A stretch of DNA of 64,000 nt, from assembly GCA_003550305.1 (NCBI GenBank), contig QKYT01000429.1, positions 7,418 through 71,417 on the forward strand, read 5' to 3'. The stretch is from Glomus cerebriforme. Its lineage: Eukaryota > Glomeromycota > Glomeromycetes > Glomerales > Glomeraceae. The notes under the pieces were generated by a model. That model had not been told where the DNA came from, ran no database searches, and worked only from the letters and a program-made list of their open reading frames with translations. This document shows, piece by piece, positions 12,020 through 42,745 of the stretch (position 1 is the stretch's first letter; every line of letters starts with the position of its first letter). A program made the translations under genes and the position numbers.

Positions 12020-13678
12020 TTAAATACGATTATATTTATATGCTAACCAATCCTTTAAAATACCTTCTTCAGCATATTTTCTACAAACATCATTAATAGT
12101 TTCTATAGGAGTTTTATTATTAACTATTTGAAATTTTAATGAATTAGAATTTTTTTCTTTCCAAATTTCAAAAAATTTCACCAAATCTTTTCTAGTAAAA
12201 TTCCAATCACCACGAATAATTATTTCAGATAAATTATTTGAAGAATGTGTGGCTAAAGTATTTAAAAATTTAAATTCATTTGTTTGTACACCAATTCCAA
12301 CACTTTTTGTTAAAAATTCTAACCAAGAATTTTCATTAACTTTTTTTCTTTCATTTGATTGATTGGAAACACCCAAACTACACCTACCATTTTCACTTAA
12401 ATTACTTTCACCACCACTTCCACTTCCACTACTATCATTACTTTTTATTTCAATATCATCTAAATTATTAAATTCATCATCAACCAATTCCCAATCTAAA
12501 TCTATTGCCTTATTAAGAGTTAAATGTTTTAAATTTTTACAATTAATTAATAAATTTTCTAAATTATTAATTAATTTATCATTAATCCAAAGAGTAAGAT
12601 ATTCAATTTTATTACAATAATTTGTAATAATTTCAATAAATTCTTTTAAATCATCAAAACATTGATCATTTGAAACTTCAATATTAATCTTTTTTAAATT
12701 ACCATTTATACTAGATGAAATTAATTTTGAATATAAATCAATTGTTTGATCAATTAAACTACTATTATTTAAAATTTCAAGTATTTCAAGATTTGGTAAT
12801 TTAATAGTATCTAAAATTTTCAAATTATTAATTAATTTAATTTTTAAAATTTTTAAATTTGGAAATTCTGCATCTTGAAATAAAGGAGAAGGTAATGAAT
12901 TAAAATTTTTTAATGTAATTGATTTAAGAGAATTAATATGAGATCTTAATGATTTTGCTAATGATAAATTTTCTATATTCATAAATGATTCAATCTTAAT
13001 CTCTTCAAGATTAATTTGTGATTCTATTAATGTATTTAATCCCATTTCATCATCTTTTAAATTTCTATTTTGTATAATAATCAATTTTGAAATATTTTGA
13101 CATATTTTAGATAAATCAAAGAATAATGAAGATTCTATATCTGTTGAACATTTTAATTTTTTAATATATTTTAAACAATTATTTTTATCTAAATAATCCA
13201 CGATTTTAATATTTGGTAACGTAATGGATTTTAATGAAATACATTGATTTAAAAACATTTTCCAAATTTCTTCAAATAATAAATTTTTGTGCATTGAACT
13301 AAAAGTATCTTCTTCAAAATTGATTGTAATATAATTATTAACAAATTTTGTAATTATATCTTGAGAAATATATTTGATGTAAGAAATATAATCGAACTTT
13401 GGTTTTTGTGATAAAATCGTAGAAGAAATGATTCCATTAATATGTAAAACTTGTTTAGAATAATCTGAAAGGCATAATATGAGAGCGTCGGTTATAAATT
13501 CCCAAAATTCTGGAGAAATACCAAGTTTCCAAGGTTTTCTCCATAATATAGGAATAGTAATTTCACACCATTGTTTATTAATTAATAAACATGAAAATAA
13601 GGTTTTATGATCTTTATATAAATATTTTAAAATATTTAAAATACAATCGTTAGGTATTTGTTGAGATTTCTTGGACAT
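12020..13678 (-). CDS. F-box/LRR-like protein, paralogue 1 (552 aa)
   Basis: This is probably the substrate-recognition subunit of an SCF (Skp1-Cullin-F-box) ubiquitin ligase, acting in cytosol or nucleus; that is inferred from the fold. An N-terminal F-box spans about residues 8-50: IPNDCILNILKYL, then SCLLINKQWCE and IPILWRKPW. The remainder is leucine-rich in an irregular LRR-like pattern. A Ser/Gly-rich low-complexity insertion at about residues 425-450 sits just before a C-terminal motif, GDWNFTRKDLVKFFEIW, that all four local paralogues share. The gene is a single uninterrupted frame. The ATG at 13678 is preceded on the coding strand by a poly(A) tract containing one undetermined base at 13687. 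The target protein cannot be guessed. Confidence 0.9.
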   Translation of the reverse strand: MSKKSQQIPNDCILNILKYLYKDHKTLFSCLLINKQWCEITIPILWRKPWKLGISPEFWEFITDALILCLSDYSKQVLHINGIISSTILSQKPKFDYISYIKYISQDIITKFVNNYITINFEEDTFSSMHKNLLFEEIWKMFLNQCISLKSITLPNIKIVDYLDKNNCLKYIKKLKCSTDIESSLFFDLSKICQNISKLIIIQNRNLKDDEMGLNTLIESQINLEEIKIESFMNIENLSLAKSLRSHINSLKSITLKNFNSLPSPLFQDAEFPNLKILKIKLINNLKILDTIKLPNLEILEILNNSSLIDQTIDLYSKLISSSINGNLKKINIEVSNDQCFDDLKEFIEIITNYCNKIEYLTLWINDKLINNLENLLINCKNLKHLTLNKAIDLDWELVDDEFNNLDDIEIKSNDSSGSGSGGESNLSENGRCSLGVSNQSNERKKVNENSWLEFLTKSVGIGVQTNEFKFLNTLATHSSNNLSEIIIRGDWNFTRKDLVKFFEIWKEKNSNSLKFQIVNNKTPIETINDVCRKYAEEGILKDWLAYKYNRI

Positions 13679-14297
13679 TTTTTTTTTNTTTTTTTTTGAT
13701 ATCGAAAAAAAAGGGGGAAAAAAATAATAGTTTAAAAGCGAAAAAAAAAATGGCTATTCTTTCTATATATATATAATAACTTTTTATTTATTTAAATATC
13801 TTGATAAGGTAAGCATTAAACTGATATATAAAACAAAGGGATTTTTTTTTTTAAAAAAAAAAAAATCGGAATTGGCTTAAACAAATTCGGAGTTACACGA
13901 AAGAAGGCTTATCTTGAATAAACATTAAACATTTGTTTCATGTTGTAACGTAAAACTCCGTTTGTATAACGTCGTACATTACAAAATAAAGGTAATGGTC
14001 AGTGAAATGTCCGTGACATATTACAAAAATACGACATGGATCAACAAATTTATTGTTAATATAAAAAAAAAAAAAAATAAAGTTTTATTTAAAAATAAAA
14101 ATTGCCGTTGATCGATGATGATACACTGCAAGGTGGCTGTAAATGTGTTTACATATGTATAAATATAGTTTACGTCTAATTTTATCGAAAAAAAAAAAAA
14201 AAATTCCCTTCCTTTCTAATGTACTTTTAAATAAGATCTTTTTATTTGAAAAAAATTCTCAAGATTCTAACATTAGTTAGGTTAATAAATCATACTA
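13679..14297. promoter_or_regulatory. shared upstream region of two divergent F-box genes
   Basis: These 619 bases lie between the start codons of F-box paralogues 1 (minus) and 2 (plus). Poly(A) or poly(T) tracts occur next to both starts and inside, for example at 14063-14077 and 14189-14203. One N is at 13687. No specific operator is recognised. Confidence 0.5.
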
Positions 14298-15761
14298 ATG
14301 AAGGTTAAACAACTTACCGAAGATTGTATAAAAGGGATTTTAGAATATATTTCGGATGATAAAATTACGTTATATTCTTGTTTGAATGCGAATAGGGCTT
14401 TTTGTAAAAGCGTGGTACCGATATTATGGAGAAATCCTTGGATTAATTCATCAATCTTTTATGATGATACAATATTTTGGAAATTGATTGGAAAGACAAT
14501 TCTCAAATGTCTTCCAAAAGAGTCCAAAGAAACTTTTTACAAGAAAGGTTTAAGATTAAATTCATCAATTATTGAACCACCATTATTCAATTATATTTCA
14601 TATTGTCAATCACTTTCGGATAAGGTTATACAAAAATTGGTTGATAATATATTTGATGGATATAATTGTGATCTTATAACATTAAATGATTATAAGGGGA
14701 TGATTCAAGAAGAATTTTGGAATTTATTTTTAAAACAAAGTTATAATATTAAATTTCTTAAACTTCCTATCTTTAAAATTTTTGAATATCCTGGTGCAAA
14801 AAGATGTTTATCATCCCTTTCTACATTAGAATGTGATACATTTTTACCTTCAGAATATTTTTTTGAAATTCCAAAATATTGTCATTCAATACGACGTATT
14901 GAAATTTCAATGAATTTTAATAATTATAATGAAGGAATTGAATCACTTATTCTTACACAAAATAATTTTCAAGAATTAAAATTTATTTCACATGAAGATA
15001 AAAAATTTAAATTTAAGAATAGTAAAACTTTAGAATTTCTTTCACGTTCATTAAAATCAATTGAATTCGAGAATAGAGTTTGTCTTTCTTCTCAAATTCT
15101 TTCCTCTTTTACTAATTTAACTGAATTACATATAAATCTTAAAAATTTTGATTATTGTGGTTTATATTGTTTAAAAGATATTATTATACCTCAATTAGAA
15201 GTTTTAAATTTAACTAATGCTGTTGGTGTTAATTTTGATATTTATTCAAATTTAATTTCAAATACTCAAGGTTTTCTTAGATTTATTAAGATTGAAACAA
15301 AAACTCATCCTCCAACTTCTAATATAGAAATTTATTTACAAACTTTAACTACTTATTGTCCTAGAATTGAGGTTGTACCAATTTGGTTGGCGAGACGTCA
15401 ATCTTTAGATAATTTTGAAAATTTTTTATTTTCTTCTAATGAATTAAAAATAATTCAAATTGAATTAAAAGAACCTAATGATAATGTATATAATAATAGA
15501 GAACCCGTATTAGCAAAACCAGTTTTAGAATTATTAGCTACCAGATCTAATCCTGAATTAAAGAAAATTTATTTAAAAGGAAAATGGAGTTTTTCTCATA
15601 CTGATCTTCAAAAATTTTTTGAAATGTGGAAGGGAAGAAGATTTTTAACTTTTCATTTTGATAATGAATTTTATTCTTATTATATTGTTAAAGTTTGTGA
15701 AGAATATTATAAACAAGGTGTAATTAACGGTGGTACTATTAACTACACATCAAAGGTTTAA
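14298..15761 (+). CDS. F-box/LRR-like protein, paralogue 2 (487 aa)
   Basis: Intronless F-box protein with the same architecture as its neighbours. The F-box (about residues 6-50) reads LTEDCIKGILEYI, LYSCLNANRAFCK and VPILWRNPW. A leucine-rich middle section follows, then the family C-terminal motif GKWSFSHTDLQKFFEMWKGR and the tail GTINYTS. The last two features make the gene at 20,089 its closest relative here, because that protein ends with the same GTINYTS motif and also has LAKPVL before the C-terminal block. Likely role: selecting targets for SCF-type ubiquitination (inferred). The start at 14298 is the first ATG of the frame and places the F-box at the usual N-terminal distance. Confidence 0.9.
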   Translation: MKVKQLTEDCIKGILEYISDDKITLYSCLNANRAFCKSVVPILWRNPWINSSIFYDDTIFWKLIGKTILKCLPKESKETFYKKGLRLNSSIIEPPLFNYISYCQSLSDKVIQKLVDNIFDGYNCDLITLNDYKGMIQEEFWNLFLKQSYNIKFLKLPIFKIFEYPGAKRCLSSLSTLECDTFLPSEYFFEIPKYCHSIRRIEISMNFNNYNEGIESLILTQNNFQELKFISHEDKKFKFKNSKTLEFLSRSLKSIEFENRVCLSSQILSSFTNLTELHINLKNFDYCGLYCLKDIIIPQLEVLNLTNAVGVNFDIYSNLISNTQGFLRFIKIETKTHPPTSNIEIYLQTLTTYCPRIEVVPIWLARRQSLDNFENFLFSSNELKIIQIELKEPNDNVYNNREPVLAKPVLELLATRSNPELKKIYLKGKWSFSHTDLQKFFEMWKGRRFLTFHFDNEFYSYYIVKVCEEYYKQGVINGGTINYTSKV

Positions 15762-16346
15762 AGAAGGAGAAAAAGAAAGGGAAAGGAAAAAGTGGGATTA
15801 AAAGAGAAATTGGTCATTTTTATTAAAAAAAAATCATATATATATTTTTTATATTGTAAAATGTAGAGTAAAATTATATATATATATATATATATTTCTT
15901 TTTCTTTTAAAATAAAATATGTTTTTTTATATATATTCCTTCAATAATTGCACTATCTACGCGATTTAAATTACGAAATTCGTGTCCCGAATCCCGATTT
16001 GCGAAATTCTTGACATTTCTGGAACACCACATGACTTTGTAGTTTTGGCCAAAATTAATTGGCCCGAATTAGGATTTATTGACGAAATTTCCAAAATTTA
16101 AATTTTTAAAGATTGTGGAAATAAATAATTTTAAATATAAAAATAATAATACATTAAATGTATGAACATTTTATATATTTTTAATTACAAATAACAACAT
16201 ACTTCAGTTAATTCGTATTCATTTGTTTTATTTTATATTCTTAACGTCAATTAAAGCAAAATCTATGAAAGATCTAATGTTTATAAATTATCTCTCATAA
16301 GTTTTTCAAATATATAATATTCGACTTTAGTATAACAAGTATAACA
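15762..16346. other. intergenic stretch with repeat-like words
   Basis: The segment contains a TA dinucleotide run at 15872-15893. At about 16,040-16,075 it has a degenerate segment with TTTTGGCCAAAATTAATTGG, like the GGCC-centred words seen in the MITEs elsewhere in the window. No gene is seen. Confidence 0.4.
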
Positions 16347-16672
16347 TTACTTCATTACAACGTCGAATAAACTCTTCGCTTCTTCCATTTTCCATACTTC
16401 ACTTATGTCAATGGGAGCATCTTTAGATATACTTTTCACATAACCCTTGATTATGTTATCTTTGTGCCAAATGCCATTCTTAGTAATCTGAACAACACAT
16501 TCATTTGTGTAAGGCTTCAAACTTACTGCTACTACTTCCCTGTCTCTTGCTAATATTGTTGCTAAGTTGCCAGGAAAATTTTCATAATCCTTCAGATCAT
16601 CGCTTCCTACTCTTGCTTCATCAGCAACAAACTTGATACTTCTGGCAACACATACTTTACTGTAAAATTCCT
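16347..16672 (-). pseudogene. orphan coding fragment without a start codon (about 108 codons)
   Basis: The minus strand is open from about 16672 down to a TAA at 16347-16349. The base composition is less AT-rich than the surroundings and the peptide looks like a real protein: FVADEARVGSDDL, NLATILARDREVVAVSLKPY, then HKDNIIKGYVKSI and APIDISEVWKMEEAKSLFDV. There is no in-frame ATG at the beginning, and a TAG lies immediately upstream. A splice-acceptor-like TTTACAG lies at its 5' edge, so it could be a last exon whose upstream exons I cannot find, or the broken end of a copied gene. I do not recognise the family. Confidence 0.5.
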
Positions 16673-16984
16673 ATTGTTATAAGCTTTTTATATGGAAAGC
16701 ATTTTTGTAAATTGTATTGAAGACGAACAAAATTTGATCAGGATAGGAAAATTTTGATCACGTATAACATTACTTACAAATGTTTGCATTACCAAGTATA
16801 ATTCCGGTCAGAACTAGGTGAGACTGGTGAGTTAAATAAGTTAAATAAGATTTCAAAATTTCGGGATTTCTTTTATTATATTAAATTTTATTTATATAAT
16901 AAAGTATGAATGATGATATTTCTAAGTATATAAAAGTCCTTGAAAAAATTTTTTTTTAAAATCTCTCATAAAAAGAACTATTTC
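16673..16984. other. intergenic stretch
   Basis: AT-rich 3' flank of the third F-box gene. I find no convincing upstream exon for the coding fragment on its left. Confidence 0.4.
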
Positions 16985-18520
16985 TTAATCGATATCTAAG
17001 TTATTACTACACCAACCTTTTATAGTACCATTGGATTGAAAATCATTCAAAATATTAAAATATTCATCGCCCATATCAAAATCACACATTAATCTTAAAA
17101 ATAGAGGATTTCTACCTTTCCATAATTTCAGGAAAGTTTCTAACTCAAGAGCATTAAATCTCCAACTACCACTTAAATTTAGTTGAACTAAATTACGAGG
17201 AAATTTTTCAATAAATAAATCGAAAATAGGTGCGGCATCACAAGCTAAAGTCCAGTCCAGATCAATATTTTCTTGATTATCATCGTCGTCGTTGTCATCA
17301 TCATCACCCCACCAAGTTTCTTCAAGATTAGAAAAAGTTGATAAAGCTTCCAGACTTATATATTTAATACTTTTACAAGATGATAATAATTGTTCTAAAT
17401 CATCATAAATTTCTTCAATATACCAAAGTGTAATATCTTCAATATTTGGGCAGTAATTGATTATTGATTGAATATATGGTTGTATTTCCCCTTCTGATGG
17501 ATGTGGAGTAGTTCTAAAATGAATTTTTCTTAAAAATCCTAAAGTAGTTTGAATAAGAGAAGTATAAAGATCCAGAGGTTGGTAAGCTGAATTTAAAATT
17601 TCCAAAGATTCCAGTTTTGGTAATGTCGCACATATTAATTCCTCTAAATCCGAATCAATATCTTTAACGAAAATATTTAAAGTTTTTAATTCAGTTAAGT
17701 TACACAGAGTCGAAACTGGTATACAAATACTAAATTCAAAAATTATGCTTGTTAAAGATTTTGATTGAGTTTCTAATGCTTTGCCAATTTTTTGACATAT
17801 ATCTCCTTCAATTGAACATAATCTCACTTGTTGTAGATTATTTTGTAAAGAAATTAGTGTTTCTAATCCTTCATTATCATCTCCACATGGATTAATAATC
17901 ATTTTCTTAATATTTCTACAGACTTGTGCCAAATCCAAAAATAATTTTGATGAACTGTAAGTTGAACATTCAAATTCACTCAGTGTTGCTAAGCAATTAT
18001 TGGCTCCCAAGAAATGGAAAATGGACGTGCTTGGTAATTCAAGATATTTAACACTAGAACAATTACTCATGAATAACTTCCATAATTCATTTTCGATAAT
18101 GTTCGCATTATAATTCCATAATACAATTGTCAAATTATTCTCATTTGTAAGAGTTTTAACAACTTTAACGATATGTTCATTGGAAAGACATTGTATATTT
18201 GATATATAATTAAATAATGGTTGTTGTTTTGTTATTGATGGTTTTAAATTGATCCCATTTTTTTTAATGACTTCTTTTTGTTCTTTAGATAAACATAAAA
18301 ATATTGTCTTTGATAATGATATCCAATAATTGTCATCCGTGTAAAAATTTCCTAATCTCCATGGATTCCGCCATAATATTTCTACAGCCGTCTCACACCA
18401 TAATCTATTGACTAGTAAACATGATAATAATGATTTTCTTTCTTCTCTTTGTGATCCTGATATTCCCTGCATATGTTTAAATATCTCTCGAAGACAATCT
18501 GACGGCAAAAATGGTATCAT
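16985..18520 (-). CDS. F-box/LRR-like protein, paralogue 3 (511 aa)
   Basis: Intronless F-box protein. The F-box, about residues 4-55, reads LPSDCLREIFKHM, SCLLVNRLWCETA and VEILWRNPW, with an extra loop of about 10 residues (ISGSQREERK) between helices that the other copies lack. The middle is LRR-like. An acidic run (GDDDDNDDDDNQENID, about residues 403-418) occupies the same place as the Ser/Gly insertion of paralogue 1. The shared C-terminal motif follows as GSWRFNALELETFLKLWKGR. Probable SCF substrate adaptor by family; the substrate is unknown. The start at 18520 is the ATG that begins right at the F-box. An open minus-strand frame just upstream (18,753-18,517) overlaps it and looks like AT-rich leader, not coding sequence. 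Confidence 0.9.
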   Translation of the reverse strand: MIPFLPSDCLREIFKHMQGISGSQREERKSLLSCLLVNRLWCETAVEILWRNPWRLGNFYTDDNYWISLSKTIFLCLSKEQKEVIKKNGINLKPSITKQQPLFNYISNIQCLSNEHIVKVVKTLTNENNLTIVLWNYNANIIENELWKLFMSNCSSVKYLELPSTSIFHFLGANNCLATLSEFECSTYSSSKLFLDLAQVCRNIKKMIINPCGDDNEGLETLISLQNNLQQVRLCSIEGDICQKIGKALETQSKSLTSIIFEFSICIPVSTLCNLTELKTLNIFVKDIDSDLEELICATLPKLESLEILNSAYQPLDLYTSLIQTTLGFLRKIHFRTTPHPSEGEIQPYIQSIINYCPNIEDITLWYIEEIYDDLEQLLSSCKSIKYISLEALSTFSNLEETWWGDDDDNDDDDNQENIDLDWTLACDAAPIFDLFIEKFPRNLVQLNLSGSWRFNALELETFLKLWKGRNPLFLRLMCDFDMGDEYFNILNDFQSNGTIKGWCSNNLDID

Positions 18521-20088
18521 TTTTTTTTATGAGTACGCTCAAAGTTGTTTATACTTTGTTGTGACTTGTGACTAAATAAAGATAGTAAGTTAGTTGGAAA
18601 GGTATTGTCAGAATTTTTCCTTTGACTTTTAATAAAAAAAAAACAATTATTAATGATTAACATATGATTATAAAAAACTCTTACACAAACCACTAAAAAA
18701 TTTTTTTTTACTTTGAACAAATGAAAGGAAAAAAATTTTTTTTTTTTTCGCAAAAAGCCACGAAATGATATTTATAGTCTACGATTAAGGACAATATCGG
18801 AGAAATTTTTATTGGTTCAATTTTTAAATAATGGAAATTATTGGTAATTTGGTATAAACCGGTACAGTATCTGCAATCAATAAATAAAGTTGCTGTTTAT
18901 CTGTTATTGTCTTTTTTTTTAAATAAAAATCATGATTAATTTCCCGTTATACCATTTTGTATTACTAATTAAAGATATTTATATTATTAATATGAAAGTC
19001 TGGCTTATTTGTTTACATGATTACATTGTGTAATCTCACATTTCCGATTTTTTTTTTCACTTCCCTACAAAAAGTGAGATTGTACGGAATAATCTTTCAG
19101 AAAGGTACTGTTAAAAGTAGTACCATAATTGTATTACATCCTATGGCCTATGCCTATTAGATTTGTCCATATTATTATTGGTAAATAAATTTATTTTCGC
19201 GTTTTCCACTAAAAAAATTTGTATAATTTATTTGAAAAGTTGATTTGTTGCGCCACGAGGAACACAAGTAATACACACTGCCGCAAATTCGGATATACTC
19301 CGAGTCTCCGACTCAGGGATCATATTTTGTAGGGATGATTTCTAATTATAAACTCGCCAAATAAAGAAATTTTAGGAGGTTATTTAGTGTAAAATAAATC
19401 GACTTTTTTTTATGTATATGTAATATGAAATTTAGAAGAAACCATTCAATCAAATTCAGAAATTATCATTTCGTATGCTGCACTAGAAGTATTAAACGGA
19501 AACCATATACTGTACACACGATAAAGTGAAAGCGTTACACATTATCACGCTATTTCAGCAATTTCTAGAAATCACAAACGTGCCCCTTTCTCAAGAGTAT
19601 TTTTTTCCACTCTTAAAACAAAAACTCCATAAAAATACAAGTAGAAAAATTTGATACGCGAATATACATCAAAAGTTAAGGATTGAATTACTATGGTAAT
19701 TTTAATCTTGACATTGACAAACATAATCAAAGATCAATTCAAAGAAATATTTAGCTAAAGATGGACTTAGAGACGGATTAACAAAGGGATCAAAAATAAA
19801 GATTAAATGTTCTTAATAATAAGAATTGGGCAATCAACCAGATTCGCAGTATATATATACTGTAAATTCTACACAGAATAAGATACTAGAATTTATCACG
19901 TGATTTAGATTTCACAGATGTTACATATTAATTACTGCGTAAAAATTAATGTGGTAATGCTCATGCGGTGGTATTTTTAAACGCTTATTTGTTTACAGAT
20001 ATAATCATTTGGCACTGATCAGCCCATAATTTCAAACATCTTTCCTCCTCGTTTTTTCATTCAAAAAAAAAAAAAAAAAAAAAAAATA
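18521..20088. promoter_or_regulatory. long shared upstream region of divergent F-box genes 3 and 4
   Basis: No gene is seen in these 1,568 bases. A small inverted repeat (TGTAATCTCAC at about 19,028 and GTGAGATTGTAC at about 19,074) and one TCACGTGA palindrome (19896-19903) are present. A run of 22 A lies directly before the start codon of the gene on the right. No transcription-factor site can be assigned with confidence. Confidence 0.45.
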
Positions 20089-21606
20089 ATGACACTTCCA
20101 GAAGATTGTATTAGAGAAATCTTTGAATATCTTTCAGAAGATAAAGAATCATTATATTCATGTTTATTTACAAATAGATTATTTTGTAGATGTGTTATAC
20201 CAATATTATGGAGAACCCCATGGCCAAGAATTAATATATCAAGAGATAATAATTGTTGGAAAATTCTTGGAAAAACAATAATTAAATGTTTTCCTAAAGA
20301 AATACAATCATTTCTTTTAAAACAATATATACAATATAGGATTTATTATTTAAATCCTTCATTACGACAACCACCTTTATTCAATTATGTTTCATACATT
20401 CAAGAAATTTCTCCACCTGTAATTAAAAATTTAACAGGAAATATAATTGATTATTATTGTAATTATTATTATGATGATTGGCGGATTGAAAAGATTGAAC
20501 AGATGCTTAATAAAGAATTTTGGACATTATTCATGAAATATTGTTTTAAGATTAAGTATCTTGATGTACCAAATTTTAATCTTTTTGAATATCATGATTC
20601 AAAAAATTCTTTATCATCCCTTTCCACTCTAAGAATAAATACACATTATCATAAAGAAATAATTATTGAATTATCAAAAAATGTTCATACGTTAAAACGT
20701 ATTGAAATACATTTGAATGATATTGAAGTTTCAGATTATGGTATTGAACAACTTATTTTATCACAAAAAAATTTAAAAGAAATATCTTTTATTCCCTCTA
20801 CATATCAAAAAATTTTTTTTAATAATCAAGAAACTATTGAATATCTTTCTTCTTCCTTAAAAATTCTTGAATTTTATAATTATATTTGTTTATTTCCTTA
20901 TACAATAACTTCTTTTATCAATTTAATTGAATTAAAAATAGATTATAGTGATCGTACTTTATTTGAAAGAGGTGTTAAAAAATTGAAAGATGTTTTTTTA
21001 CCAAAACTTGAAATTCTTTCTTTAATAAATGTTAAAGGAAAATATTTAACGATTTTTACTCAATTAATAGAAAAAACAAAAGGTTCTCTTAAAATTCTTA
21101 ATATTCACTTTCGTAAAAAATATCCTTTATCTTTATCACCTTCATCATTATCATCAATTGAATATTATCTTCGTACAATTCAAACGACATGTCCAAATAT
21201 TGAAGTCTTACCGGTTTGGTTAATTTCAGAAATTTCTTTAATTGATTTTGAAAATTTATTAAAATCTTGTTCAAAAATTAGAAAAATTATTATTCATGTT
21301 ATAACAACAAATTCAAATTTTCAAATTGATACAGTATTAGCGAAACCAGTTTTATATCTATTAGCAATAAAATCATCATCTACCCTTTTAAATAATATTC
21401 ATTTAATTGGTAGATGGAGTTTTTCTAATTTAGATCTTGAAGAATTTTTTGAATTATGGATAGAAATGAAAAGAAAACGTTTAACATTTAATTTTAATAA
21501 TAATATTTGTTCTAATTATATTATTAGAGTATGCGAATTTTATCATAAAATAGGTGTTATTAAAAGTGGTACAATCAATTACACTAGTCCATATAAATAT
21601 TATTAG
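20089..21606 (+). CDS. F-box/LRR-like protein, paralogue 4 (505 aa)
   Basis: Intronless F-box protein, closest here to the copy at 14,298. The F-box covers about residues 2-46: LPEDCIREIFEYL, LYSCLFTNRLFCR, then IPILWRTPW. The LRR-like body carries Tyr-rich insertions (for example around residues 124-136), absent from paralogue 2. The C-terminal motif GRWSFSNLDLEEFFELW and the tail GTINYTS close the protein. The ATG follows a 22-A tract and a TA. Presumed role: target selection for SCF ubiquitin ligase. The differences from paralogue 2 lie mostly in the LRR body, the expected target-binding part, which suggests different substrates (inference). Confidence 0.9.
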   Translation: MTLPEDCIREIFEYLSEDKESLYSCLFTNRLFCRCVIPILWRTPWPRINISRDNNCWKILGKTIIKCFPKEIQSFLLKQYIQYRIYYLNPSLRQPPLFNYVSYIQEISPPVIKNLTGNIIDYYCNYYYDDWRIEKIEQMLNKEFWTLFMKYCFKIKYLDVPNFNLFEYHDSKNSLSSLSTLRINTHYHKEIIIELSKNVHTLKRIEIHLNDIEVSDYGIEQLILSQKNLKEISFIPSTYQKIFFNNQETIEYLSSSLKILEFYNYICLFPYTITSFINLIELKIDYSDRTLFERGVKKLKDVFLPKLEILSLINVKGKYLTIFTQLIEKTKGSLKILNIHFRKKYPLSLSPSSLSSIEYYLRTIQTTCPNIEVLPVWLISEISLIDFENLLKSCSKIRKIIIHVITTNSNFQIDTVLAKPVLYLLAIKSSSTLLNNIHLIGRWSFSNLDLEEFFELWIEMKRKRLTFNFNNNICSNYIIRVCEFYHKIGVIKSGTINYTSPYKYY

Positions 21607-32292: not shown

Positions 32293-33300
32293 TTAAATAA
32301 AGTTTGTTTCTGCTAAAATTACTTTCTTAATCCTCTTTTTTTCATCATCAGTTAATAAATTATATTCCCTAGTTTTTTGAAATTCAGAATAACTTTTAAT
32401 ACCCAATGGTAATAAAGGAATTAATTTTCTATCTACATAAACATTAATGGGTTGTGATATTTTCTTTTTTTTAAAAGATAATAATTCATTACTTAATATT
32501 TCATTAATGGTTAATTTAAGACATCTTTGAACATCTTTATCTAAAAAATTGAAAAAAATTGATTTTTCATATTCTAAAAAATCATTAATAGTAAAAGAAC
32601 TTTGCAAATAAATAAATGAATTATTTTTGAGCTTTCTATTTTTATCACTATCAAGAAATTGAATAATTTTGCTATGAAAATTTTGAATATTTGATTTATT
32701 TAAATTATTAGCTGTTGAAGGACTATCAACACAATAACATTCATCTAACAACTTCCTAGAGTTAAATTTTTCTTTTTTATTATAACCAAATATCAATGGA
32801 ACATCATCATTTTCATTACTAGTCAAAGAAACAATTTTCTTATTATTTTGTGATGAACGGATTTCTTTTTTAAAGATATTAAATTCTTTTCCAAACTTTT
32901 CAATATCTTGATCTTTAATGATTGAATCAGCCTCCAATTCTTCAATACGAACGTTTAAATATTCAATTAATTGTGACTGAGAAACAAATTTTTCTTCAAG
33001 ATTTTCACGAACCTTTTTTATTTCAAGAAAATCATTAGAATTCGTTTCCAATTTTTTAATAATCTCATTTTGTTGAAACGAATTTTCTTTATAAAAATTC
33101 TTCAAATTTAAAATCATTTGTTTTCCAAAATCTTCAAATTCTTTTGCTTGTTTTTCCATTAACTTATAAAATGGTTCATTTGGAGTGCCGATCTTATTAT
33201 TCTCGTCTACATTTATTTTTTTCTTAATTTGAATAATCTCATTATTTTGAATAGAAGATATAGTGGAAGATTCCACCAAGACATTTTTTCGTGTATCCAT
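32293..33300 (-). CDS. coiled-coil protein of an unrecognised local family, member 1 (335 aa)
   Basis: Family unknown to me; the function is not inferable. The protein has two N-terminal blocks shared with the genes at 35,101 and 37,866. Block 1 (about residues 44-72) has FYKLMEKQAKEFEDFGKQM. Block 2 (about 109-140) has YLNVRIEELEADSIIKDQDI and is helical with heptad character, so probably a coiled coil. The C-terminal half carries a module shared with the third member: IQNFHSKII leading into FTINDFLEYEKSIFFNFL (about 208-268), then a second half-module IKSYSEFQKTREYNLLTDDE (about 301-331). It is intronless. The ATG at 33300 lies behind mixed poly(A)/poly(T) leader DNA. There is no signal peptide or membrane segment. 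Confidence 0.8.
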   Translation of the reverse strand: MDTRKNVLVESSTISSIQNNEIIQIKKKINVDENNKIGTPNEPFYKLMEKQAKEFEDFGKQMILNLKNFYKENSFQQNEIIKKLETNSNDFLEIKKVRENLEEKFVSQSQLIEYLNVRIEELEADSIIKDQDIEKFGKEFNIFKKEIRSSQNNKKIVSLTSNENDDVPLIFGYNKKEKFNSRKLLDECYCVDSPSTANNLNKSNIQNFHSKIIQFLDSDKNRKLKNNSFIYLQSSFTINDFLEYEKSIFFNFLDKDVQRCLKLTINEILSNELLSFKKKKISQPINVYVDRKLIPLLPLGIKSYSEFQKTREYNLLTDDEKKRIKKVILAETNFI

Positions 33301-35100
33301 TATTAATCCTTTTTTTTTTAAAAAAAAAAAAAAAAAGGAAAGAAAGAAAGGAAGGAAATGTTACAATCCGTATAATTTTTTTTTTTTTTTTATAACTTTA
33401 ACGAATATAAAAAAAGTTATTGTGTAGAAATGATAAGCAATGGCGATTAATTTACCTGTTACCTGATTTGATTTTTTCCGGATAATCTTTGCCGTATTAA
33501 AAAATAACATAAAACAAAAATTATAAGAATAATCAAATATTCCCACCTAAAAATCGATAATCTAAAAATGTTAACAAAAACTTTCTTATCGAAAAGGACT
33601 AAGTAAATTCAGGTTTTATAAGTAAGCTTTTGTTATGATAATTCCTAAAAAGATGAGAATTAGTTCTCGTATGAAAGGAACAAATCAATTTATGTATCAT
33701 AGTCATAAAATTTTGGTGATACTATTATGAAATTAGTTAGTAATTTATAAGTACAAGTACATATTTCAAATCGTTTGCTTTTTTTAACATATTTAGACGC
33801 TTTTGTTTTGACAATTAGTTATAGTATTTTACTTCAGATCATTTATTTGCTTTTTAAAATTTAATTTATTACACATAAAGAAATGATTTGAATTAAAAGA
33901 AAGAAAGAAATAACGTAATCATGTCTCAAATCGACTTGGGATATCCCAAATCAGATTTGGGACATGGTAGAGTTTGGGTTATAAGAATCTGTTCTGAAAC
34001 GTGATTAAGTGATCAGTTGATCGGGTTTATGATATCATGCTACTTCAGTCATGCAAACTCTATTGATTGGTGTAACCGATCAAACGAAGCCATGACATCA
34101 TTATAATTCCACTCATACTAATTATTGTCTTGCCGTCAAATATTAAACCATTGAATTTATTATTTTGTTATACATTTACATATTACTATACCATAAAGAC
34201 CGAGATCGTCCTAATCCAGAACATTTAGTAATCATATTCGAAATCCTTTTTAGATGCATCGCGTATATATTGTATATAAAATTAATTCACAAAACATTTG
34301 AAAGAAATCGTTCAAAAAGACAAAAATTATTTTATTATGATACAAAAAAAAAAATGTGTATATTTATGAATAATATAACTGATAATGTAATGCCTATTTA
34401 CGTAAATAAATTTGTCAAGATAAAATATTTTAAAAATATTAGAATAGTAACTTTAAGAAAGGAATTTTCCACTTTCGAGTTCTCATTGTTATGAGCGTAT
34501 AAACACGCGTATGTATGAGTCATTCTATTTAAATATATAAATTTCTGATTAATCACGTTATAGTTAAAATTATGTTTAATGAACCCCCCTTTTGTGATTG
34601 ACATTTTTATAACGTGGTATCGTAGGTAATGCGGTCGCACATGATTCACTAACTGAAAAAAGTGACGCAATTTATGTATGGAAATTTCCACAAAATAATG
34701 AAATTTTGTCACGTTATACGTTAAAATTTTTTGATACGTCTTTATTTATTTGCCGTATTAAATCTTTGTTACCTGAAACAATCTTCTAAATGTTAATTGA
34801 ATTAAGGCGTAGATTTTCCTTTGTTAAACATTAATTCTATAATCATTTCAGTCTAATTATCCAATCAAATATTACCTGCAAATCATTACTGTACATATTC
34901 AGTAACGCCCGAGAACGCCCTACATTTACTATACTAAGCATAAACGCTTAAATACCCTGTGATGTAATTTCATACAAATTCTCGGCGTATACAATTCTCT
35001 CTTGAAAATCTAGAAAAAATTTTTTTTTTGAAAAAAAAAATTTATTAAATAAACGAAATAATAATAATAAAAAAAAAAAAAAAATTTTTTAAAAAAAAAG
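33301..35100. promoter_or_regulatory. intergenic region between divergent members of the coiled-coil family
   Basis: The 1.8 kb between two divergent family genes contain A/T runs next to both starts and an imperfect 47-nt palindrome at 33,921-33,967. Overlapping open frames on both strands at 34,165-34,712 look like chance AT-rich frames. No gene is supported. Confidence 0.45.
33921..33967. repeat. imperfect 47-nt palindrome centred on GATATC
   Basis: CATGTCTCAAATCGACTTGG leads into GATATC, and the right half returns as CCCAAATCAGATTTGGGACATG-like sequence with a few mismatches. It could be a cruciform-forming or protein-binding site upstream of the divergent genes, or a transposon scar. 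Confidence 0.6.
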
Positions 35101-36279
35101 ATGAATCCTACAACAACTTTTGAAACTAAACAAGAGATGGGAAAACAAGATCCTTTATTTAATATTTTAGAAAAACAATCAAAACAATTTGAAGAATTTG
35201 GTAAACGTATGAGTTTAGAATTACAATCATCATATCAAGATTATTTTAAACAACAAACCGAAAAACTTCAAAAATTATATTCTGGACTTGAATCTGAAAA
35301 TAATATTACTTGTAAATGTAATGAGAAAGATGAATTAATTGTTTCTTTGAAAACTCGTATTGAAGAATTAGAAGCTGATTCTAATATTAAAGATCAAAAT
35401 ATTCAAAAATTACAAAAAGATGTACATTCCCTTTTTAATATTATCGTCAAGAAAGGTATAGCTAATATTGAAGAATTTGATTCTATTCCTACTTGTCCTA
35501 CTAAAATCATGGTTACACCTGACGTTGGAGAAGAACTTTACGATAGTGAAAGTACTAAACAAGAAATAAATGTTAATAAAGTAGAAATTGAAAAAGATAG
35601 ATTATCAGTTGAAAGTATTCAATATTATGATGATATTAAAGATAGTTATTCAGATTCTGCAGTGGATCTATTTACAGATGATGATGATTATGATGGTTCT
35701 TCAACTACTGGAGATTCGGTTAAAACAGAAGATTCAAATTATACTAATAAATATGATCGACCTTCAGAATGGCTTGATGTTTCTCCATCATTAAAACAAC
35801 GTTCTAAATTTGATAAAAGAAATTTGGATCGTTGGAATTCTAAAATGGCTTCTAATGGATTAATACCAATTAAATTAGTAGGAAAAATTGATGAGGAAAA
35901 AGAAAAAAAGATTCAAACTCATCGAAAAAGATATAGTACATCCGCCATCTGGGTAAAAACTTATGAAAATAAACAGAAACAAGATCAAGATGAAAAGTTT
36001 AAAATTCCTTCATTTAATTTTTCTAGATATACTTTTAGTACGACGGAAGATGTTAAATCAAAACAAAAACAAAAACAAAAACAAAAAGATGCAAAAGAAG
36101 AATTTTCTGCTCCTATTTCTTTAAAGAGTTCAGTCAGTACTTCTATATCTGACCTTTATACTACTTCTTTAGTAACTACATCAACTACTTCTTTACAACC
36201 TTATGAATTATTAGAACATCATAAAAATACACCTATGAATTTTAGTAAATCTCAACAAATGCTTTCTCAATATAAGTAA
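35101..36279 (+). CDS. coiled-coil protein of the local family, member 2, with a different C-terminus (392 aa)
   Basis: The N-terminus repeats the family blocks: LFNILEKQSKQFEEFGKRM (about residues 19-38), and LKTRIEELEADSNIKDQNIQ (about 83-102) within a predicted coiled coil. The C-terminal FTxNDxIQY module of members 1 and 3 is missing. Instead there is an acidic Ser/Asp-rich stretch (DSYSDSAVDLFTDDDDYDG, about 180-200), a basic segment (KRYSTSAIW region), a KQKQKQKQK run near 322-329 and a Ser/Thr-rich tail. Intronless. The ATG lies right after a long A-rich leader. Function unknown. The family resemblance is confined to the first 110 or so residues, so this is a domain-swapped or truncated-and-extended relative. 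Confidence 0.8.
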   Translation: MNPTTTFETKQEMGKQDPLFNILEKQSKQFEEFGKRMSLELQSSYQDYFKQQTEKLQKLYSGLESENNITCKCNEKDELIVSLKTRIEELEADSNIKDQNIQKLQKDVHSLFNIIVKKGIANIEEFDSIPTCPTKIMVTPDVGEELYDSESTKQEINVNKVEIEKDRLSVESIQYYDDIKDSYSDSAVDLFTDDDDYDGSSTTGDSVKTEDSNYTNKYDRPSEWLDVSPSLKQRSKFDKRNLDRWNSKMASNGLIPIKLVGKIDEEKEKKIQTHRKRYSTSAIWVKTYENKQKQDQDEKFKIPSFNFSRYTFSTTEDVKSKQKQKQKQKDAKEEFSAPISLKSSVSTSISDLYTTSLVTTSTTSLQPYELLEHHKNTPMNFSKSQQMLSQYK

Positions 36280-36695
36280 TTGAAATGGAGTGGGAGGGGT
36301 TGTTATATATGAAGGATTGATATGAAGGATTGATGTAAATCATATAAAAGGACATTAAAACATTCAAAACTTGTATAAAAAAAAAATTTGTATTTATTTT
36401 ATTTTATTATTATTATTTATTATTTTTTTTTCTATAATATCCATGTGTGTATAGATTTTATTTTGGACATTGGTAGAAGAATATAATAAATATAATAAAA
36501 CTCGATAATACTCTAGTTTTTTTATAAAACGGATCATTTTCCGATAAGCGAATGAGTATAAATTCCTGCTTTTTTTGTGTTACAATTTGAGTTTTAAAAA
36601 GAAACAGATTTCAAGCGTGGTAATTTTTACTGCCCTTTTTTTAAAAATTTTATAATGAAAATACAAGATAATAAAGGAGCGGTTATAACACTGAA
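36280..36695. other. intergenic stretch
   Basis: 3' flank of member 2; AT-rich with TTATTA runs. No gene is seen. Confidence 0.4.
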
Positions 36696-37130
36696 ATTTT
36701 GAATAATACATTTATTAAACAACAAAATGAAACGTTAGAAAAGAATTTAAAATTGTTGCGAAAAATGTAAAAAAAGAAATGATTTCTCAATCAGAATTAA
36801 TAAATGGTCTAATAACTCGTATTGAAAATTTAGTAATAAAAAAGATCATTTTCTTCAATTATATAATAAAGAAACTTATGATAAAAGAGTTTAATAAAAA
36901 AGATTATGAAAATGCATTATGGATGAACAAAGATTTAGATAATGTCTTGGAGAACGATAATATTATAAAGAATTCAATTCAACCCGCTAAAACATCGAAT
37001 AATTCATCTTTATTTTCTCAAGAAAATATAAAAAATTATTAAAAGAAGACAATTTTACGAGTAACGATTTAATTCAATATACAAAAACACAACAATTTTA
37101 ATTCCGCTTTAAAATAATATTAAATAATTT
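36696..37130 (+). pseudogene. broken copy of the local coiled-coil family
   Basis: Fragments keep the family order. IKQQNETLEKNLKLLRK (about 36,710) ends at a stop. Then, in another frame, ISQSELINGLITRIENL (from 36,782) matches block 2 of member 1 (SQSQLIEYLNVRIEEL). Finally, after a further frame change, DNFTSNDLIQYTKTQQF at 37,053-37,103 matches the C-terminal module of member 3, followed at once by a stop. At least two frame breaks and a much shortened middle make it non-functional. It shows that the ancestral gene had both the coiled coil and the C-terminal module. Confidence 0.75.
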
Positions 37131-37865
37131 AAGAAACGGATGGAATTAGGAAATGAATGGATGAATGAAAGTTCGAATTTGGGAGATAAGTAACAGATTT
37201 TGAAAACCGTACTCGAACTTCATTCAACATATAATTATACAAGAAGTTTTGGGTAGGTTGAACCATTTTTAAAGATGTATATATATATATGTTTTTTGTA
37301 TGACCAATAAATAAATGTTTATTTTATACGAAAATTTCGTCACGATGTGGCGGATGTGCCGAATGACTGATAATTTAATTGGTTGATCTAAATTCACTAA
37401 TTAAATTGCGGGATAGCTACGCGTTTAGTTAATTATCAGCCATTTTTCCAAATTAATGACTTTATTATTAAAAGTTCAATTTTCTACATCACCAATAAAT
37501 TCTATATAATTATTGAATCCTTTCAAATTACACAGTAAATATAAAAATCTAAATTGAGTATGTATTGTCTGTTACATCCACATTTTTGCCGTAAAAACGG
37601 AATCAAGGAACTTTAAATTTACTGCGGTATGTTTACCTAATTACCTTAATGAATAAAATAATTACAATCCATTTTAATGAAACAAAAGCGCACATCGATA
37701 TATATTAAAACTCTATATTTCCCACCGGTGAAAATCATCTCCCCGTTTGTTATCGTTTCACATGAAAGTGAGAAAAAATTGTATATAAACAAAAAAAATT
37801 TAACATTTCTCCCATTTTTCTTTATCTGTTGTCTTTTTTTTTTTATATTAAAAAAAAAAAAAAAA
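37131..37865. other. intergenic stretch upstream of family member 3
   Basis: No gene is seen. An inverted pair (ACTGATAATTTAATTGGT near 37,365 and TTTAGTTAATTATCAGCC near 37,424) could form a hairpin. The region ends in a run of A directly before the start codon. Confidence 0.45.
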
Positions 37866-39161
37866 ATGGATTTAGATAATAATGATAATATTTTGGATGA
37901 TGATATAAAAAATTCTTTTTATCAATTATTAAAAAAACAAGCAACGGAATTTGAATTATTTGGTCAACGTCTACAATCAGAAATACAAAATTCTTATCAA
38001 GAATTTATAAAACTTCAGGAAAAACAAGAACAACAAAATTTAACTCAAATAAATCATGAAAAAACTACAGATTTTCAAAAGAGTCAAAAAATCATAAACG
38101 AGATAACAAAACTTAGTAATTCACAAACACAAATAATAGAATCTTTAAAAGCTCGAGTAGAAGAATTAGAAAACGAATCTTTTATAAAAGATCAAGATAT
38201 TAAAAAACTTCGAAAAGATCTTGAACTTAATAAATTACGAATTAAAAAATTTGATACTAAAGGAAAATCTATTGAAATTGTCGATGAAAAATTAAAAGAT
38301 TATGATGAGATATGGAATTATGAAGGTTTAAATTGGGAAGATAATGTAAATGAGAATTTTTTAAATTCTTTAAAGACTACTCATGATGAATCTTCCTCTT
38401 CCTATTCTTCAAATAATAATGTTTCTTCTTCACAAATTAATCAAATTCACGCTAGAGTTCAAAAAATTATTAATCGAAGAGAGAATCTCGGTAAAAAGGT
38501 TAAAAAAAAGAATTTTAAAATTTTAGCAAAAGATTTTACGAGGAATGATTTAATTCAATATACAAAATCAGAATATTTTAATTCTTTAAAAGATAATATT
38601 AAGGGGAATATAAATAAATTGTTAAAAGAAATTCCTTCGAATTCTTCAATGACAACTCATGCAAAATCAGCAAATAGTACTTCTTCACATTCATTAAATC
38701 ATTTTTCTTCTTCACAATTTAATTCATTTCCCCAAGGAAATCAAGAAACTACTCCCGTACTTGAAAAACTTCATTCTCAAATTCAACAAATAGTTATACG
38801 AAAAGGAATTCTTGACTGCAGAGTTAGGTTAAAAGATTTGAAACCTTTAAAATCATTTTATACGATTAATAATTTTATTCAATACACAAAAACAAGTCAG
38901 TTTAATTCTTTGGATAATAATACTCAAAGATTAATGAATCTTCTTATCTATGAAACTTTATCAAAAGAATTAGAACAACGAAGTGTAATGCCACAAAATT
39001 TGGATGAATATATTGGAAGAGGTGTTATCCCAGAATTACCTTCTGGATATAAAAATTATACTGAATATGAGAAAAGTGATATGTTTAACAAGTTAAATAG
39101 GGCTTTAAGAAGAAGGGTTAGTAAGTTAGTTTTATTAGAAAAAAGGTTAATAATCCCATAA
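37866..39161 (+). CDS. coiled-coil protein of the local family, member 3, with repeated C-terminal module (431 aa)
   Basis: I prefer the ATG at 37866 over an upstream in-frame ATG at 37677, because a poly(A) leader precedes it and the family homology begins shortly after; the longer start gives 494 aa. Block 1 is FYQLLKKQATEFELFGQRL (about residues 18-36). Block 2 is LKARVEELENESFIKDQDIK (about 94-113), a likely coiled coil. Two copies of a 62-residue module follow, at about 194-255 and 302-363. Each starts IHARVQKII or LHSQIQQIV and contains FTRNDLIQYTKSEYFNSL or YTINNFIQYTKTSQFNSL. A terminal half-copy is at about 395-426 (YKNYTEYEKSDMFNKL). Ser-rich linkers separate them. No known domain is recognised; the function is unknown. 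Confidence 0.85.
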   Translation: MDLDNNDNILDDDIKNSFYQLLKKQATEFELFGQRLQSEIQNSYQEFIKLQEKQEQQNLTQINHEKTTDFQKSQKIINEITKLSNSQTQIIESLKARVEELENESFIKDQDIKKLRKDLELNKLRIKKFDTKGKSIEIVDEKLKDYDEIWNYEGLNWEDNVNENFLNSLKTTHDESSSSYSSNNNVSSSQINQIHARVQKIINRRENLGKKVKKKNFKILAKDFTRNDLIQYTKSEYFNSLKDNIKGNINKLLKEIPSNSSMTTHAKSANSTSSHSLNHFSSSQFNSFPQGNQETTPVLEKLHSQIQQIVIRKGILDCRVRLKDLKPLKSFYTINNFIQYTKTSQFNSLDNNTQRLMNLLIYETLSKELEQRSVMPQNLDEYIGRGVIPELPSGYKNYTEYEKSDMFNKLNRALRRRVSKLVLLEKRLIIP

Positions 39162-39699: not shown

Positions 39700-42600
39700 A
39701 TGGCGGATAATAAACTGAATAAACTGACAAAATCTGATAATAAATCTACAAAAGAAACAAATAATTTATCACCAAATATTGATAATGATGCAGCAGCTAG
39801 TTCAACTTCACTTGCAACTTCTGTAACTTCGGATAATAATTTTTTGACTGCTGAAGAAGTAGTAAAAAAAGCTAAAAATGTATCAGCATTTCATTTATTT
39901 TTTAAACAATTATGGATTATGATAAAAAGAAATGCTATTTTACAAGTAAGTAAAATACTTTGAATCGAATCTGTTTTTTTCAAAATTTCTGATTTTAAAA
40001 AAGTTCTATTTTCTTTTTTTTTTTTAGAAACGATATTATAAATCAACTATAGCTCAAATTATAATCTGTCCAATTTTATTTTTATTATTACTTTTTATTC
40101 TACAAAAATCTGATAATCAACAAAGATTAAAATCAATCCTTCATCCTTCGTCCTATCCTCTTAATGGAGTTCAACATTGTCAAGGATTTTATACTGATTC
40201 ACCATGTATTAATCTTATGTTTACTCCTGATACAGTAGAAAATCGTGCAATTTTATCAATTTTTGCCACAAATAATGAAAGAAGAACAGGAAAACCTTTA
40301 GCTTTTAGTGATGTTACTTTAGATATTAGTAAAATACCAGATGAAACTCTTGGAATGGTTCCTGTAGCAAATCCTGATTTTATTTATGATTACACTTTGC
40401 AACATCCAAATGTTACAACTTTTGGAATTGAATTCAATTCATTAGCGGGTCCACCAATAAATTATCGTTATCAAATTTGGTTTAATAGTACTTTAATGGC
40501 AAATGATTCTGATGTCTTTAGTGAACAAGTTTTAGCTTTTCAACGTGGAATTGATGAAGCTATTATATCTTTTGCTTCAGGAGAACCAGCAACAAGTCAA
40601 ACACCTGTAACCTTTAATATAAATTTAAAAGATTGGCCAAAAGTTCCTCCGAAACAGACTGGTGATCCAATCGTTTCACAATTTGGAACTATGTTCTTTT
40701 TCTGCGCGAACATGATTATTTTTATTTCAATTCTTAATACTATTGTGACAGAAAAGGAAGCAAAATTAAAGGATAGTTTAATCATGATGGGATTAAAAAT
40801 AGAAGTATATTGGTTAAGTTATTTCATTTCAAATGCTTGGCTTATAGCTATTTGTTCTTTAACAACTTGTTTAGGTGGTCTTGCATTTGGTTTTTTCTTT
40901 TTCACCAATACAAATTTTGCTGTTGTTTACATAACTTTCCTTCTCTTTGGTTTGGCAATGATTACATTTGGATTTTTTATCACAACTTTCTGTCGTCATT
41001 CTCGTATAGCAGTTTTAGTTGGTATTTTCTTATTTATCATTGGATTGATCTTTGAATCTTTCGTATTCTCTAATACATTCATAGGTTATATTTGGTGGGA
41101 TCCAAAAACAAATAGTGCAGGTCGACATATATTAATGTTTATTCCATTTTTCAATTTTGGTAAAATTTTCTTAGATATTTCAAATTTAGCTTCGGGTAAT
41201 CTTGATGAATTAACACAAACATTAATTCCCGGACCTGGATTTAAATGGAATGATTTATATAAAAGGATTGATGATAAACCTGAAGTACCAGCTCCAATTC
41301 AATCTTTGTATTTCTTGTTAATGAATATCGTATTTTATTCAATTCTAACTTGGTATTTTGATAAAGTAATTCCTAATGAATATGGTAATAGAAGGAATCC
41401 TTTATTCTTTTTGACTCCAAGTTATTATGGAATTAAATTTAAAAAAAATTTTAATTTACAAGGTTGGTTAAATCGACATAAAAATTCAAATGAAATAGAT
41501 TATAACGATGATGATGAAGATGTTGCAAATGAACGTACTTTAGCTTTTAATCATGAGCATGATGCAGCTTTACGTATTTGTAATTTAAAAAAAGTTTATA
41601 GGCAATCTTTGTTTATTAAAAGTAAATTAGATAAAGTTGCTGTTAAAGATTTATGTTTAACATTGAAAGAATCAAAATGTTTAGCACTTCTTGGACAAAA
41701 CGGTGCTGGTAAAAGTACTACAATTAATATAATTTCTGGTGCCGCAAGAGCAACTTCAGGTGATGCTCTTCTTTACGGATGTAGTATTAAGAATGATATT
41801 AGTCAAATTCGTACTATTATGGGTGTTTGTCCACAACATGATATTTTATTCAATGATTTAACTGCAAAAGAACATATTGAATTATACGCTGGTATCAAAA
41901 ATATTCCTACTGAAGAAATTAAAAAATTAGTAGATGAACGTTTAGCAAGTGTAAGACTTACTAAAGTTGCTGATAAACCAGCTGGTGGATATAGTGGTGG
42001 TATGAAACGTCGTTTAAGCATGATAATTGCTACTATAGGTGACCCAAAAATTCTTTTCTTGGATGAACCCACAACTGGTAAATAACAATAATATATATAT
42101 TTATATTAAAAATTTAAAATTTTACTAATTTTAATTTAACTCCAATATATTTTTAGGGATGGATCCGGTAAATCGACGTTATGTTTGGAGTTTTATTGAA
42201 AATTTCAAGCGCGGACGTGTAATTATTCTTACAACTCATTCTATGGAAGAAGCTGACGTTCTTGGTGATCGAATTTGCGTTATGGCTCATGGGAAATTAC
42301 GTGCTATCGGAAATTCTATAAGACTTAAGAATAAATTTGGTGGTGGTTACAGGATATCTTTAGTAACAAGAACCGAAGATAGTGCCAAGTTAAAGCAATT
42401 TATGGAAAATAGAATTCCCGAAGCTACTTTAGAAGATGATTCGGCCGGATCTTTATTATATGAATTACCTACTTCTGCTTTACCTAATTTACCTGCTTTA
42501 ATTAAATGGCTCGAAGAAAATGACGAAAGAAGTATTATTGAACCTGACAAGAAATTGATTAAAGCTTGGGGTATTAGTCAAAAGACTTTAGAAGAAGCTT

Positions 42601-42745
42601 TCTTGAGATTGTAAGTAACTCGAATTAATTTTTCTTTTTTTTTTTCGTGAAAAAAACTTAATATTTCTGTTTTTTTTACGCATTTTATAGGATTCGTGAC
42701 GCTAATCCTGGTGGATATAGCGGCTATGAAGAAAACTTAAAATGA
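39700..42745 (+). CDS. half-size ABCA-type ABC transporter (934 aa)
   Basis: Four exons (39700-39945, 40028-42077, 42157-42610, 42691-42745) join in frame with GT-AG introns. ABCA transporters use ATP to move lipids or sterols across or between membrane leaflets; this one's substrate is unknown. The N-terminus is polar. A first membrane helix, STIAQIIICPILFLLLLFIL, comes at about residue 88. A large non-cytosolic loop follows, then a cluster of five or so helices from about 315. The first of these is followed by the ABCA-like KEAKLKDSLIMMGLK. The ATP-binding domain has Walker A GQNGAGKST (about 638), signature YSGGMKRRLS (about 737), Walker B KILFLDEPTTGMDP (about 757, completed only by splicing exon 2 to exon 3) and the H-loop TTHSMEEAD. 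There is one membrane domain and one ATPase domain, so it must dimerise or be a plant/Dictyostelium-like half-transporter. Confidence 0.92.

Follow-up and report, generated by a model that had tools for sequence, protein, structure and literature searches.

What might a cluster of lineage-specific genes do when the module that ends its proteins has no named counterpart? The question is raised by positions 32,293 to 39,161 of a 64,000-nucleotide stretch of Glomus cerebriforme DNA (contig QKYT01000429.1; the whole stretch is called the window below), where an original prediction made from the letters alone recognized three intronless genes, here members 1 to 3, and a pseudogene. Arbuscular mycorrhizal fungi have many lineage-specific genes of this kind that carry no functional hint. 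Going beyond the original prediction, we find that a helical block shared by the window genes also heads zinc-finger proteins and two parts of the translation initiation factor eIF4G elsewhere in the genome, and such fusions with known domains hint at translation or RNA handling. Our preferred reading, to which we give a probability of roughly 0.4, is that the window genes represent a Glomeraceae-specific family of intracellular adaptors, in which the block docks members and the exchanged C-termini bind RNA, DNA or translation factors.

Results

A helical block shared by proteins with different C-termini

The three single-exon genes lie where they had been predicted (Table 1), and the parts that they have in common exceed chance. 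As proposed, two N-terminal parts align in all three: an amphipathic helix of the form FYxLLxKQxxEFExFGxxL, and a block of about 44 residues, SLKxRIEELExDSxIKDQDIxKL, whose residues R, E, L, E, S, I, K, and Q are invariant or nearly so in 13 aligned proteins. Repeats at the DNA level, detected in a repeat search, also connect the three genes. The frame of member 3 sits inside a longer open reading frame (ORF), open from 37677; its single-exon model is supported at the sequence level by full-length relatives from Rhizophagus diaphanus (452 amino acids [aa]) and R. clarus (451 aa). The pseudogene stands in part: a remnant of the block and one of the C-terminal repeat A (described below) are recognizable in different frames, but the N-terminal helix, also claimed for it, was not found on the same strand by tblastn at E<=1.

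In the window's own genome, the same block is joined to known domains. At C185:210524-212158 (L010:5025-6659), a single frame without interruption runs through the block (from 210596) and an eIF4G-like region. The protein matches the Pfam models eIF_4G1 (2.6e-15, 56.8 bits, cut-off 27) and MIF4G (4e-35, 121.8 bits, cut-off 30.8) and eIF4G among PDB sequences (best 3.7e-35), and its eIF4G-like region is 59-62% identical to the canonical eIF4G on C358. MA3 is absent from it, the last matched frame stopping after GAKGWI, before that domain. At C633:416175-417074 (L056:3676-4575), a block exon is followed by an 86-nucleotide GT-AG stretch and then, in frame, by the eIF4G linker and MA3 part, which are 54% and 71% identical to canonical eIF4G (71-72% for the MA3 exon). 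MA3-like sequence was found in the genome only on C633, on C358, and as a broken copy on C550. The pieces of canonical eIF4G matched by the two block-headed loci do not overlap and complement each other. This suggests that an eIF4G paralogue is divided over these loci in complementary parts, both opening with the block, with putative splicing on the MA3 side.

That both heads belong to the block family is secure from sequence comparison. With a profile built from 14 other members, several being closely related among themselves, the block of the MIF4G-side protein (L029) scores 45.1 bits, and the best of 5,894 scored shuffles 17.4; the MA3-side exon (L056) reaches 56.2 bits, against 22.7 for the highest among 5,906 scored heptad-preserving shuffles. 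Two further sequences score 55.9 bits (L058; control maximum 11.0) and 32.0 bits (L057, without a control of its own). No such head was found in the canonical eIF4G: of three pieces compared with the block profile, one gives 1.6 bits and the others give no score, and genome searches with both eIF4G heads returned no block match on C358. Neither head has the N-terminal helix, and the two group together, with weak support (77/85), in a tree of the N-terminal parts. Pairwise nonsynonymous (dN) and synonymous (dS) divergences from canonical eIF4G are 0.27 and 0.56 for the MIF4G side and 0.17 and 0.41 for the MA3 side. We considered these ratios as proof of constraint on the eIF4G parts and found them not decisive, since constraint on the canonical branch alone could produce the values.

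The block is joined to C2H2 fingers at C633:196896 (L006:1408-2973; zf-C2H2_4, 5.4e-12 in Pfam). A second copy of this fusion on C724 (L057:4347-5362) is interrupted by stops and contains undetermined bases.

The C-terminal domain of members 1 and 3

The original prediction had described a module of 62 residues followed by a half copy. We find instead that the domain spans about 130 residues and consists of two repeats that have diverged, A (about 80 residues, taking in the motif of the original prediction) and B (about 50 residues, consensus IPxLPxGxxSYxEFxxTxxFxxLxxxxKxRIxKLxxxE). An hhalign comparison matches the A profile to the B profile over 31 columns with a probability of 90 and a score of 33.6, which was reached by 0 of 200 column-shuffled B profiles (best 14.4); thus, the supposed half copy is the second repeat, B. 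The alignment comprises 13 stretches, namely eight A+B, four first A copies, and one single A. Member 1 has the plain A+B form; the A, then A+B arrangement of member 3 is also seen in its relatives from R. diaphanus and R. clarus. No A/B domain was seen in member 2 by alignment.

AlphaFold2 models the A+B domain with confidence (predicted local distance difference test 88.6, predicted template modeling score 0.81), and it is confidently predicted to be helical and compact. The earlier statement that the module belongs to no named domain agrees with our searches: no match was found in Pfam, NCBIfam, PDB sequences, PDB folds, or viral folds. Scans for Pfam-A domains above the cut-off gave none in members 1 and 3, the relatives P0002-P0005, P0011, and P0012, or the genome loci L008 and L002; the nearest approach was Mrx7 in P0012 (19.6 bits, cut-off 22.8). 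The predicted fold is so far unmatched and may be new; being small and confidently predicted, the domain should be easy to express and solve. Six module stretches carry net charges of +7 to +13, and six N-terminal parts -3 to -10.

Relatives, conservation, and age of the family

Three protein searches returned 8, 8, and 3 proteins, the window's own among them; in two of these searches, scoring was confined to the 7,991 and 7,987 candidates with the most words in common, and distant relatives may be missed. The named relatives come from R. diaphanus, R. clarus, R. irregularis, Funneliformis geosporum, and G. cerebriforme, all Glomeraceae (taxonomy checked for three of the names), and two more are unnamed. 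As far as searched, the proposed lineage specificity thus holds, every named match being from Rhizophagus, G. cerebriforme, or F. geosporum. The full-length relatives of member 3 (P0002-P0004) are 59-62% identical to it and include the hypothetical proteins C1646_709394 of R. diaphanus (61%) and RclHR1_01550011 of R. clarus (59%), both with its architecture. RclHR1_01550002 of R. clarus (P0011) has the architecture of member 1 (44% identical over 99%), and C1645_794789 of G. cerebriforme (P0012), which shares the architecture as well, is 52% identical over 49% of member 1. No mention of four such locus tags was found in openly licensed papers. In the gene model of P0005 (R. irregularis), the core of the first A repeat is left out, as is part of the second; P0006, also from R. 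irregularis, keeps the first A repeat, and the gap in P0005 is perhaps a false intron.

Between member 3 and P0002-P0004, the block (31-34 of 41 positions identical) and the N-terminal helix (26-30/36) are most conserved and linker 2 (14-21/40) least; the values for the two A copies are 46-47/68 and 43-48/72, for B 41-45/59, and for linker 1 38-39/65. Between member 1 and its R. clarus counterpart, the corresponding values are 29/42 for the block, 35/60 for B, 35/75 for A, and 3/50 for the linker.

Tandem duplication had been envisaged originally; a recent local duplication finds no support here. R. clarus has counterparts of both member 1 and member 3, whose tags (RclHR1_01550002 and RclHR1_01550011) point to one scaffold, which probably places the origin of the pair before these species separated. 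Both the R. diaphanus and the R. clarus protein already possess the extra A copy of member 3, and in a tree of low resolution (4/13 inner branches starred) the N-terminal parts of members 1 and 3 do not come out as sisters. The family in the window's genome comprises at least 12 loci, 11 from single-protein genome searches plus the pseudogene; these counts are lower bounds.

Table 1. Features of the window genes (window positions) and family loci in the same genome
Feature	Position	Strand	Content or basis
Member 1	32293..33300	minus	ORF, 335 aa, single exon; N-terminal helix, shared block, A+B domain
Member 1, N-terminal helix block, residues 40-75	33076..33183	minus	alignment; AlphaFold2 helix starts at residue 43
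Member 1, shared helical block, residues 106-149	32854..32985	minus	gapless block
Member 1, repeat A of C-terminal domain, residues 205-285	32446..32688	minus	alignment, profile comparison, AlphaFold2 model
Member 1, repeat B of C-terminal domain, residues 286-335	32296..32445	minus	alignment, profile comparison, AlphaFold2 model
Member 2	35101..36279	plus	ORF, 392 aa, single exon; N-terminal helix, shared block, Ser/Thr/Asp-rich tail
Member 2, N-terminal helix block, residues 17-50	35149..35250	plus	alignment
Member 2, shared helical block, residues 74-117	35320..35451	plus	gapless block
Pseudogene, shared-block remnant	36743..36850	plus	tblastn, frame 1
Pseudogene, repeat A remnant	37033..37098	plus	tblastn, frame 3 (other frame than block remnant); DNA repeat D1
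Member 3	37866..39161	plus	ORF, 431 aa, single exon; N-terminal helix, shared block, A, then A+B
Member 3, N-terminal helix block, residues 15-50	37908..38015	plus	alignment
Member 3, shared helical block, residues 85-128	38118..38249	plus	gapless block
Member 3, first repeat A, without B, residues 191-258	38436..38639	plus	DNA repeat and alignment
Member 3, second repeat A, residues 299-379	38760..39002	plus	alignment, profile comparison
Member 3, repeat B, residues 380-431	39003..39158	plus	alignment, profile comparison
Family loci of the window	C556		members 1-3 and pseudogene
Block family locus	C185 192k		Ser/Thr-rich tail
Block family locus	C185 210k		with eIF4G
Family locus	C185 214k		single A
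Family locus	C185 224k		A+B; cut by contig end, hence no block seen
Family locus	C633 197k		zinc fingers
Family locus	C633 416k		eIF4G
Zinc-finger copy	C724		broken
Family remnant	C809

Some neighboring sequences may be recorded here. The MA3-like stretch on C550 (28080-28403) is degenerate, with stops, and is perhaps a dead eIF4G copy. Near the MA3-side locus (C633, about 415 kb), an ORF on the minus strand (L037, near base 2781 of the reverse complement) encodes what by eye is an HMG-box-like protein (RPKNPFILFSNN...). In the window, an ABC-transporter-like gene of several exons, read from the ORF sequence, lies just 3' of member 3 (39700-42611), and four large ORFs at 12023-21603 have similar starts (around DCxxxI) and resemble an F-box-type gene cluster.

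Discussion

A proposed docking block with exchanged C-termini

From the block homology, the architectures, the A/B repeat, and the confident domain model, all of which were computed directly, we infer the following course of action. The conserved block, usually placed after the amphipathic helix, would dock members to one another; that it is the block which probably forms the docking surface is indicated by its being, together with the N-terminal helix, best conserved among close relatives of member 3, with linker 2 least, and by the like contrast of block and linker between member 1 and R. clarus. What follows the block is exchanged: members 1 and 3 have a basic A+B domain, member 2 has a Ser/Thr/Asp-rich tail, and other loci have C2H2 fingers or one of the two eIF4G parts. 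Because the A+B domain is basic and occupies the place taken in relatives by zinc fingers or parts of eIF4G, the proteins that bear it may be RNA- or DNA-binding adaptors inside the fungus. The block would thereby gather nucleic-acid-binding members (those with zinc fingers and, judging from charge, those with the A+B domain) together with both eIF4G parts, and the family might tune how the fungus initiates translation or handles mRNA. The presence of one block on such different partners suggests a lineage-specific assembly tag.

Several observations weigh against this adaptor reading. The MA3-side fusion, and with it the case for a second tagged eIF4G part, depends on the putative 86-nucleotide GT-AG intron, without which the block frame stops, and the MA3 exon of C633 scores 16.5 bits, below the Pfam cut-off of 23.2 that the canonical exon passes at 28.6. 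The MIF4G-side head has H at the near-invariant S of the block. AlphaFold2 confidence over the N-terminal part is about 50-74, and the break predicted near residues 125-129 falls within the block, which leaves a continuous coiled coil without support. Positive charge, here weighed by itself rather than against other proteins of this AT-rich genome, hints at nucleic-acid binding only weakly. The contrast in conservation is not seen between member 1 and P0012 (linker 23/50, A 26/75, B 29/60). The fusions, moreover, were sought in one genome, that of the window, and a translation link of the window's own members would have to hold by extension from the other loci.

The block could instead be a conserved stretch from the 5' end of genes of an old family, picked up along with its promoter as a first exon by duplicated genes such as the eIF4G parts and the zinc-finger proteins, and would then have no common docking function. 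The MA3-side locus, with the block on an exon of its own, and the lack of the N-terminal helix in both eIF4G-type heads fit such a capture, and local duplication would be easy because the MIF4G fusion shares C185 with three other family loci. Yet an idle piece should have eroded, whereas the block keeps its characteristic residues across the 13 aligned proteins, and the eIF4G heads retain its R, L, E, K, and Q despite a dS of 0.41-0.56 from canonical eIF4G. We regard capture as unlikely, though deserving to be taken seriously. That the proteins form a structural or cytoskeletal helical scaffold unrelated to RNA, with the eIF4G link as a side branch, appears distinctly unlikely to us. The original prediction offered a scaffold or effector-like role; the scaffold or adaptor part is plausible, but the effector part fares poorly. 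Lineage specificity and the lack of known domains would suit secreted or host-directed symbiosis effectors; however, relatives are joined to eIF4G and zinc fingers, and a simple hydropathy scan, run with neither a trained predictor nor a positive control, saw no signal-peptide-like hydrophobic stretch near the N-terminus. The highest 11-residue means are 1.25, 0.04, and -0.10 for members 1, 2, and 3, and 1.49 is the top among nine proteins. Secretion is thus disfavored and, in our view, very improbable.

The adaptor reading can be carried further. An eIF4G paralogue may have been split between MIF4G and MA3, with the common helical tag rejoining the two parts to one another, along with zinc-finger and A+B adaptors, in a Glomeraceae-specific alternative scaffold for translation initiation, to which the window genes would supply a nucleic-acid-binding domain of a new fold. 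This is a doubtful, speculative extension; if true, the split, tagged eIF4G would be an unusual natural case of a core factor residing in two genes with an assembly tag.

Comparison with known systems

Short relatives of eIF4G (DAP5/eIF4G2, PAIP1, PDCD4) regulate translation, and the loci described here resemble them in having MIF4G with the eIF4E-binding region in one protein and the MA3 part in another. They differ in that the parts are complementary and each opens with one lineage-specific block, a situation of which no case was found in openly licensed papers. An analogy may also be drawn with the SCAN-, BTB-, or KRAB-type zinc-finger families of animals, which have a common N-terminal interaction part and varied or exchanged C-terminal binding parts and are often clustered in the genome. 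The sequences are unrelated by Pfam, scans of 13 proteins revealing no SCAN, BTB, or KRAB domain, and there are about a dozen loci here rather than hundreds; oligomerization through the block would be the counterpart of the interaction part. Beyond the shared N-terminal part, the exchanged C-terminal parts, and the clustering, the fungal family also combines translation-factor parts with a new-looking domain.
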